Shown piece after piece: positions 43,857 to 44,140 of a DNA stretch of 64,000 nt. The notes under the pieces were generated by a model, which worked only from the letters and a program-made list of their open reading frames with translations, was not told the DNA's origin and did no database searches. The position numbers and the translations under genes were made by a program. This DNA is from an uncultured Eubacteriales bacterium. GTDB taxonomy: Bacteria; Bacillota; Clostridia; Christensenellales; Aristaeellaceae. The stretch is taken from the NCBI GenBank assembly GCA_900315585.1, contig OMZP01000002.1:1-64000 (forward strand). The letters run 5' to 3'. Position 1 is the stretch's first letter. Each line of letters begins with the position of its first letter.

Positions 43857-43919
43857 GACTGGGCAAACCTCCGATGGTTTATGAATTGAACATAGCTTTC
43901 GCGGGATAGAAAATAATAG

Positions 43920-43961
43920 TTGTACACAGTCTCTGCGGAATGGATATAATCGATGTGTACA
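43920..43961. promoter_or_regulatory. TGTACAC inverted pair with a -10-like box in the recombinase leader
   Basis: TGTACAC (43921-43927) and GTGTACA (43955-43961) flank TATAAT (43945-43950). These could be operator half-sites. No gene is read rightward from here, so the plus-strand -10 may be fortuitous. Confidence 0.35.
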
Positions 43962-44082
43962 GCTTTTGCGAAATAGATATGCCCGGCGTTTTCGGTCGAC
44001 ATAGCATCTTATGAAGATATCCTATTCATAATTCTCTTATTTTGGGCATATCTTTTCGCAAAAGCTGTCTTTTGCGCAGAGA
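43930..44082. repeat. nested long inverted repeat upstream of the recombinase gene
   Basis: The inner arms are 43959-43984 (ACAGCTTTTGCGAAATAGAT, then ATGCCC) and 44044-44068. They match over 25 bases with one single-base indel. A further outer pair is TCTCTGCG (43930-43937) with CGCAGAGA (44075-44082). The 59-base AT-rich core between the inner arms carries no gene. The element lies in the leader of the recombinase gene. Confidence 0.8.
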
Positions 44083-44140
44083 TACAGATGAAAGGGACCC
44101 CGCCGGAAAACGTCCCCCGGCATCGTCCCTCGTCGGTTTT

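Follow-up and report, generated by a model that had tools for sequence, protein, structure and literature searches.

A Putative Chromosomal dif Site and Its Inverted Half-Copy beside a Single Xer-Family Recombinase Gene in Gut Clostridia

Background

Xer systems that operate with a single recombinase are known exceptions, found in streptococci and lactococci, in epsilonproteobacteria and in archaea, and the core sites of tyrosine recombinases usually combine conserved arms with a variable centre. Recombinase half-sites arranged as an inverted repeat, able to fold with an extrahelical base, are known from CTXphi attP and integron attC. Phage integration has been described for V. cholerae (PMC4246890). 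The XerS/difSL system of Streptococcus and Lactococcus (PMC5357621, PMC2731167) uses one recombinase and a 31-bp difSL site having an 11-bp centre and unequal arms (PMC5357621), and XerH/difH of Campylobacter and Helicobacter likewise has a single recombinase (~354-362 aa) that is genetically linked to its site (PMC5357621). The XerC/XerD pair (CodV/RipX) of B. subtilis and most Firmicutes acts with FtsK-gamma on one dif site per chromosome, located at the terminus (PMC3025954).

The locus described here lies in a window of 64,000 nucleotides (the whole stretch of DNA that was analysed) and comprises the gene of a Xer-family recombinase together with its leader. A first-pass annotation of the leader had reported a long inverted pair, with one indel, around a 59-bp core, and this repeat is borne out above shuffle expectation; what was overlooked is that 44051-44082 is itself near-palindromic, the right arm of the pair being one of its halves. 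On the strength of its sequence and setting, this near-palindrome very probably serves a single-recombinase Xer system as its chromosomal dif. The features of the locus are collected in Table 1.

Table 1. Features of the recombinase gene, its leader and the adjoining gene, in window coordinates
Feature	Coordinates	Strand	Remarks
Xer-family tyrosine recombinase, 356 aa	42786..43856	-	Pfam Phage_integrase, 111.9 bits; best NCBIfam match XerS
Outer TCTCTGCG match to the left half of the putative dif	43930..43937	.	chance level, unconserved
Inverted copy of the gene-proximal half of the putative dif, with flank	43959..43984	-	one extra base (bulge) at 43974
59-bp loop between the arms	43985..44043	.	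largely unalignable across species
Flank outside the putative dif arm (TATGCCC on the minus strand)	44044..44050	-	pairs with the inverted copy; letters vary by species, pairing kept
dif-like site, TCTCTGCGCAAAAG-ACAG-CTTTTGCGAAAAGA	44051..44082	-	conserved beside orthologues, one per genome, skew turn 14 bp away
Parts of the dif-like site	left half 44069-44082; centre 44065-44068; right half 44051-44064	-	
Upstream gene, cysteine-rich small protein of 82 aa	44141..44389	-	conserved neighbour of the module

The Recombinase and Its Neighbours

The encoded protein carries the motifs GIRVSEL, RKGG, HKLR, LGHSD and RRHY, and thereby the catalytic R-K-H-R-H-Y of a tyrosine recombinase. Its match to the NCBIfam XerS model reaches 181 bits against a cut-off of 267, so that the curated model is not passed, and the scores for the XerC and XerD models lie further below their respective cut-offs. 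Among solved structures in the PDB, the nearest by sequence belong to XerD and to XerC/XerA-like proteins, and XerH is further away (42 bits). Two complete relatives have just one Phage_integrase gene in common, a count that refers to these complete relatives; the window's own genome encodes other integrases besides the recombinase. FtsK-gamma co-occurs with the recombinase, the start of which (43856) is 195 bp from the dif-like site. The cysteine-rich protein encoded upstream (CDDCGECTVCDLDPNKICDNCMKC) has no Pfam or NCBIfam match. In two relatives the orthologous recombinase gene is irregular, being seemingly split in two in one (G017:C171:40822-41900) and represented only by its end in the other (G020:C82:10514-10624), which may reflect assembly error or gene loss.

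Conservation and Uniqueness of the Site

Window bases ~44044-44083 were found by DNA search to be about 80-97% conserved in many of 60 relatives, far above the surrounding leader. When 80 named loci were combined with the loci of relatives, 101 distinct leaders of orthologous recombinases were obtained, about 85 of which have one near-palindrome at most 700 bp upstream of the gene; about 16, mostly from distant relatives, have no convincing site within 700 bp. Conservation of the near-palindrome next to orthologues of the recombinase gene spans the order and reaches the Lachnospiraceae. Its consensus is TCTMTGCGYAAAAG-NCAG-CTTTTGCGAAAAGAT in this genus and ACTATTCGYWAAA-N6-TTTWRCGAATAGT in more distant relatives, with two conserved arms around a short centre that varies from clade to clade. 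Xer/dif systems in general have a near-palindrome of ~28-32 bp with this arrangement of two arms and a short centre. Some Lachnospiraceae (L131, L134, L137, L138) have the site at about -2.6 kb from the recombinase gene. Comparison of the leader in relatives had been suggested as a check, and it did find an arm conserved beside the orthologous genes, namely the right arm, as a half of the putative dif. The related idea that the repeat contains the enzyme's own recombination sites can be kept for the right-hand element, as a single dif, and not for the left, which is a half-site only.

A strict pattern for the site matched 68 of 151 genomes of the order, with exactly one site in each of the 68, and the reversed pattern, used as a control in the same scan, had no matches. 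The window's genome likewise has one site when searched with the pattern fitted to this genus, in agreement with the one site per chromosome of Xer/dif systems. One genome (G075) has no site with either pattern, and in another (G019) the site is accompanied by a further, weak match with 3 mismatches; the genomes compared are nearly all metagenome assemblies.

Position at the Replication Terminus

Cumulative GC skew in the window has its maximum at 44,096, 14 bp from the site, and in a near relative the peak (143,869) and the site (143,905), both on a 299-kb contig, are 36 bp apart. For a complete 3.39-Mb chromosome of the family (G207), with skew sampled in 20 stretches, values are positive until about 1.0 Mb and then negative to about 2.57 Mb, the sign changing at the site (1,018,655). 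Another member of the order, G037, has its site (G037:C2:64303) 54 kb from the recombinase gene, and a skew plateau at about 50-64 kb contains the site and excludes the gene. The site is thus found at the GC-skew turn, or replication terminus, as in known Xer/dif systems.

Because the plateau in G037 follows the site and not the gene, dif is preferred here over a mere operator. The palindrome could be an operator of the recombinase gene with no dif involved, given that it stands in the leader of most relatives and overlaps or adjoins promoters in several; its occurrence once per genome at the skew turn, its separation from the gene by 2.6 kb to 54 kb in some genomes, and the presence of the same site in phage contigs with no such gene nearby, make this highly improbable. 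The autoregulatory operator of the first-pass annotation survives as a possible function, in that consensus sigma-70 promoters adjoin the site in outgroup relatives, although not as the main role of a site that may be separated from the gene by 2.6 kb or 54 kb.

If 44051-44082 is dif, the recombinase would bind its 13-14 bp arms on two sister sites at the septum, with the help of FtsK, and strand exchange within the 4-6 bp centre would convert a dimeric chromosome to monomers. We infer both the recombination activity and its dependence on FtsK.

The Inverted Repeat in the Leader

Positions 43959-43984 and 44044-44068 form 25 pairs around the 59-bp core, with one extra T at 43974, the left arm reading ACAGCTTTTGCGAAA-T-AGATATGCCC. 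When the 284-bp leader was shuffled 500 times with dinucleotides preserved, one shuffle reached the 15 bp of its longest perfect arm, with the further 10 pairs uncounted, and the single-strand fold of the repeat region has a stability far above that of shuffles (z -6.1 and -5.2). A repeated element or MITE was ruled out, as the window's genome has this hairpin just once, and an Rfam search of the region returned no known RNA family, its sole match being a microRNA model hit by chance. Two shorter pairs pointed out earlier, TCTCTGCG/CGCAGAGA (43930-43937 with 44075-44082) and TGTACAC/GTGTACA (43921-43927 with 43955-43961), are present in the sequence but appear chance-like, and they were set aside as pairing with the dif left half in relatives scores at shuffle background. 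A promoter-like match, TGTACA-18-TATAAT (window 43921-43950, + strand), lies on the strand opposite the recombinase and outside the core of the repeat.

Inverted arms that adjoin a tyrosine recombinase gene had also suggested a small invertible segment, with the 59-bp core flipping between inverted sites and so turning a promoter to or from the gene, and a second promoter-like match on the + strand (43996-44023) does lie inside the core. Two complete inverted sites would be expected of such a switch, whereas one complete site is found, the other being a half-site with an extra base. Moreover, wherever the loops of close species can be aligned clearly, they share one orientation, and the second arm is absent in short-leader relatives, most relatives having the site without it. 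Inversion is not supported on these grounds and is considered very unlikely.

The Half-Copy across Species

The left arm corresponds to an inverted half-copy of the putative dif that runs from its centre outwards, includes 5-9 bases beyond the arm, and separates dif from the gene. Of about 35 related species, 9-10 have it, the window's included; the right arm is conserved more widely. Scores of 40-49 were obtained in 9 species, against shuffle maxima of 18-24. The half-copy belongs to a long-leader form, with dif 188-305 bp from the start codon and the half-copy some 30-80 bp further on; none was found in the short-leader set, with dif 61-77 bp from the start codon. The gene tree requires 3 to 6 changes for the long form, which is patchy within the genus, and such a distribution of the half-copy is weak for an important regulator.

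Bases outside the arm differ by species (ATGCCC, ATGGCGC, ATGCCGCG, AGGYCGG, AGGGNGC) and match within each. An alignment of the arms (A1), assembled by hand around the structure, has 94.4% of cells paired, a covariation score of 0.121 (0.039 in shuffles and a maximum of 0.035 in slid controls) and 8 cells changed on both sides (2.7 in shuffles); pairs with double changes number 4, as many being seen in 72 of 500 shuffles. The position of the bulge is identical in all nine copies (9/9), with one or two extra bases (A, C or CC, on the dif-like strand), and the loops are mostly unalignable. Since wobble pairs favour neither strand, nothing in the pattern is specific to RNA. One leader (L072, offsets 70-200 after the site) has two tandem inverted half-copies resulting from a direct leader duplication of ~95 bp.

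In our reading the half-copy belongs to the dif-xer module, where it would form a hairpin in the leader or act as an accessory element. It is predicted to be a cis-acting leader hairpin that tunes recombinase expression, a reading we place just short of probable: in the leader transcript or in single-stranded DNA, the half-copy would pair with the right half of dif in a bulged stem of ~25 bp, which would keep that half out of dif's own hairpin. Any regulation of this kind we infer.

The main rival is a recurrent mutational palindrome, in which a functionless half-copy is remade by template switching or quasi-palindrome correction near the terminus and the arms stay alike without selection. Patchiness among close species, the variable lengths of loop and leader, the tandem second copy in L072, and a location at the terminus, where forks meet, are all consistent with this origin, which is possible though on the less likely side: repeated templated copying should erase a bulge that is found at the same place in all nine copies, the sister species L068 and L069 keep one-sided changes uncorrected, and the arms are 94% paired while the loops mostly cannot be aligned.

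Alternatively, the half-copy could be an accessory half-site where a recombinase monomer, bound beside the promoter, represses the gene that encodes it, in place of the dif-promoter overlap seen in short leaders. Within the copy, the core CTTTTGCGAAA of 11-14 bp varies least and tracks a change of the dif core in L085, and for most copies the distance to the start codon is roughly 60-125 bp. Outgroup relatives, moreover, have consensus sigma-70 promoters directly before or after dif, and these flanking promoters demonstrate the physical proximity of site and gene expression in those relatives. An accessory half-site nevertheless leaves unexplained the copying of 5-9 species-variable bases outside the arm, and no strong promoter on the gene's strand was found in this genus, including beside the window's half-copy; we consider it unlikely. 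A selected, bulged hairpin is favoured with moderate confidence, because the outside bases are superfluous to a half-site operator and would be gone from an old neutral copy, and repeated copying would have erased the bulge.

Phage-Borne Sites

The strict site was also found in 87 stretches of viral contigs (among them L203-L282; e.g., L254:8130, L210:782, L248:10520), many of which presumably come from rumen samples, judging by record numbers. About 50 different centres occur among the 80 viral stretches read; the site is intergenic in 67 of the 80, and several sites lie close to terminase and portal genes or immediately precede them, a layout that resembles phage P1, where lox lies next to pac. 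Dimer resolution or circularisation of the phage is a possible role for these sites. Reliance of the phages on the host enzyme is not demonstrated, as 14 of the 24 viral records checked encode a tyrosine recombinase elsewhere. No named phage or plasmid was matched when the site was used as a BLAST query, which had one fixed centre and is therefore a weak probe.

Comparison with Described Systems

Judged by its sequences, the system would appear to work like XerS/difSL, yet neither the curated model nor the architecture of the site places it in that group. In both, the gene of one 356-aa recombinase directly follows a single dif, putative here, that lies at the terminus, and FtsK is present. 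The site here differs in length (32 bp) and in layout, nearly symmetric arms of 13-14 bp enclosing a centre of 4-6 bp in place of the 31-bp, 11-bp-centre design with unequal arms; the arm sequences differ, and the protein falls short of the XerS cut-off as given above. The likeness to XerH/difH is one of linkage between a single recombinase of similar length and its site; the phylum is a different one, and the protein is distant in sequence, with 42 bits to XerH. Terminus location, one site per chromosome and FtsK-gamma are shared with XerC/XerD and dif, but instead of two recombinases passing both models there is one shared Xer-like gene in the complete relatives, scoring far below the XerC and XerD cut-offs. 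The arms are also unlike the Bacillus subtilis type. As in CTXphi attP and integron attC, inverted half-sites here can fold with an extrahelical base; unlike in those, there is one full site and one half, and no mobile element, cassette or integration was seen. A search of the open-access literature found nothing on this site, or on XerS in these families.

Implications

In summary, this probable single-recombinase dif system is of a little-described kind, with XerS/difSL among its closest known counterparts. A selected leader hairpin with a fixed bulge might serve as a structural switch coupling the state of the dif region to recombinase production, in a single-recombinase lineage of gut Clostridia and Lachnospiraceae whose site is also carried by phages, although we regard this extended proposal as doubtful. 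The findings would add a further bacterial single-recombinase Xer group, in a large order of gut Clostridia and extending into the Lachnospiraceae, with a defined site sequence. Such a group would allow dif to be located where searches based on XerC/XerD do not apply, and the site would serve as a marker of the replication terminus in many genomes, with the half-copy and the phage-borne sites providing leads on how such modules may be regulated and borrowed.
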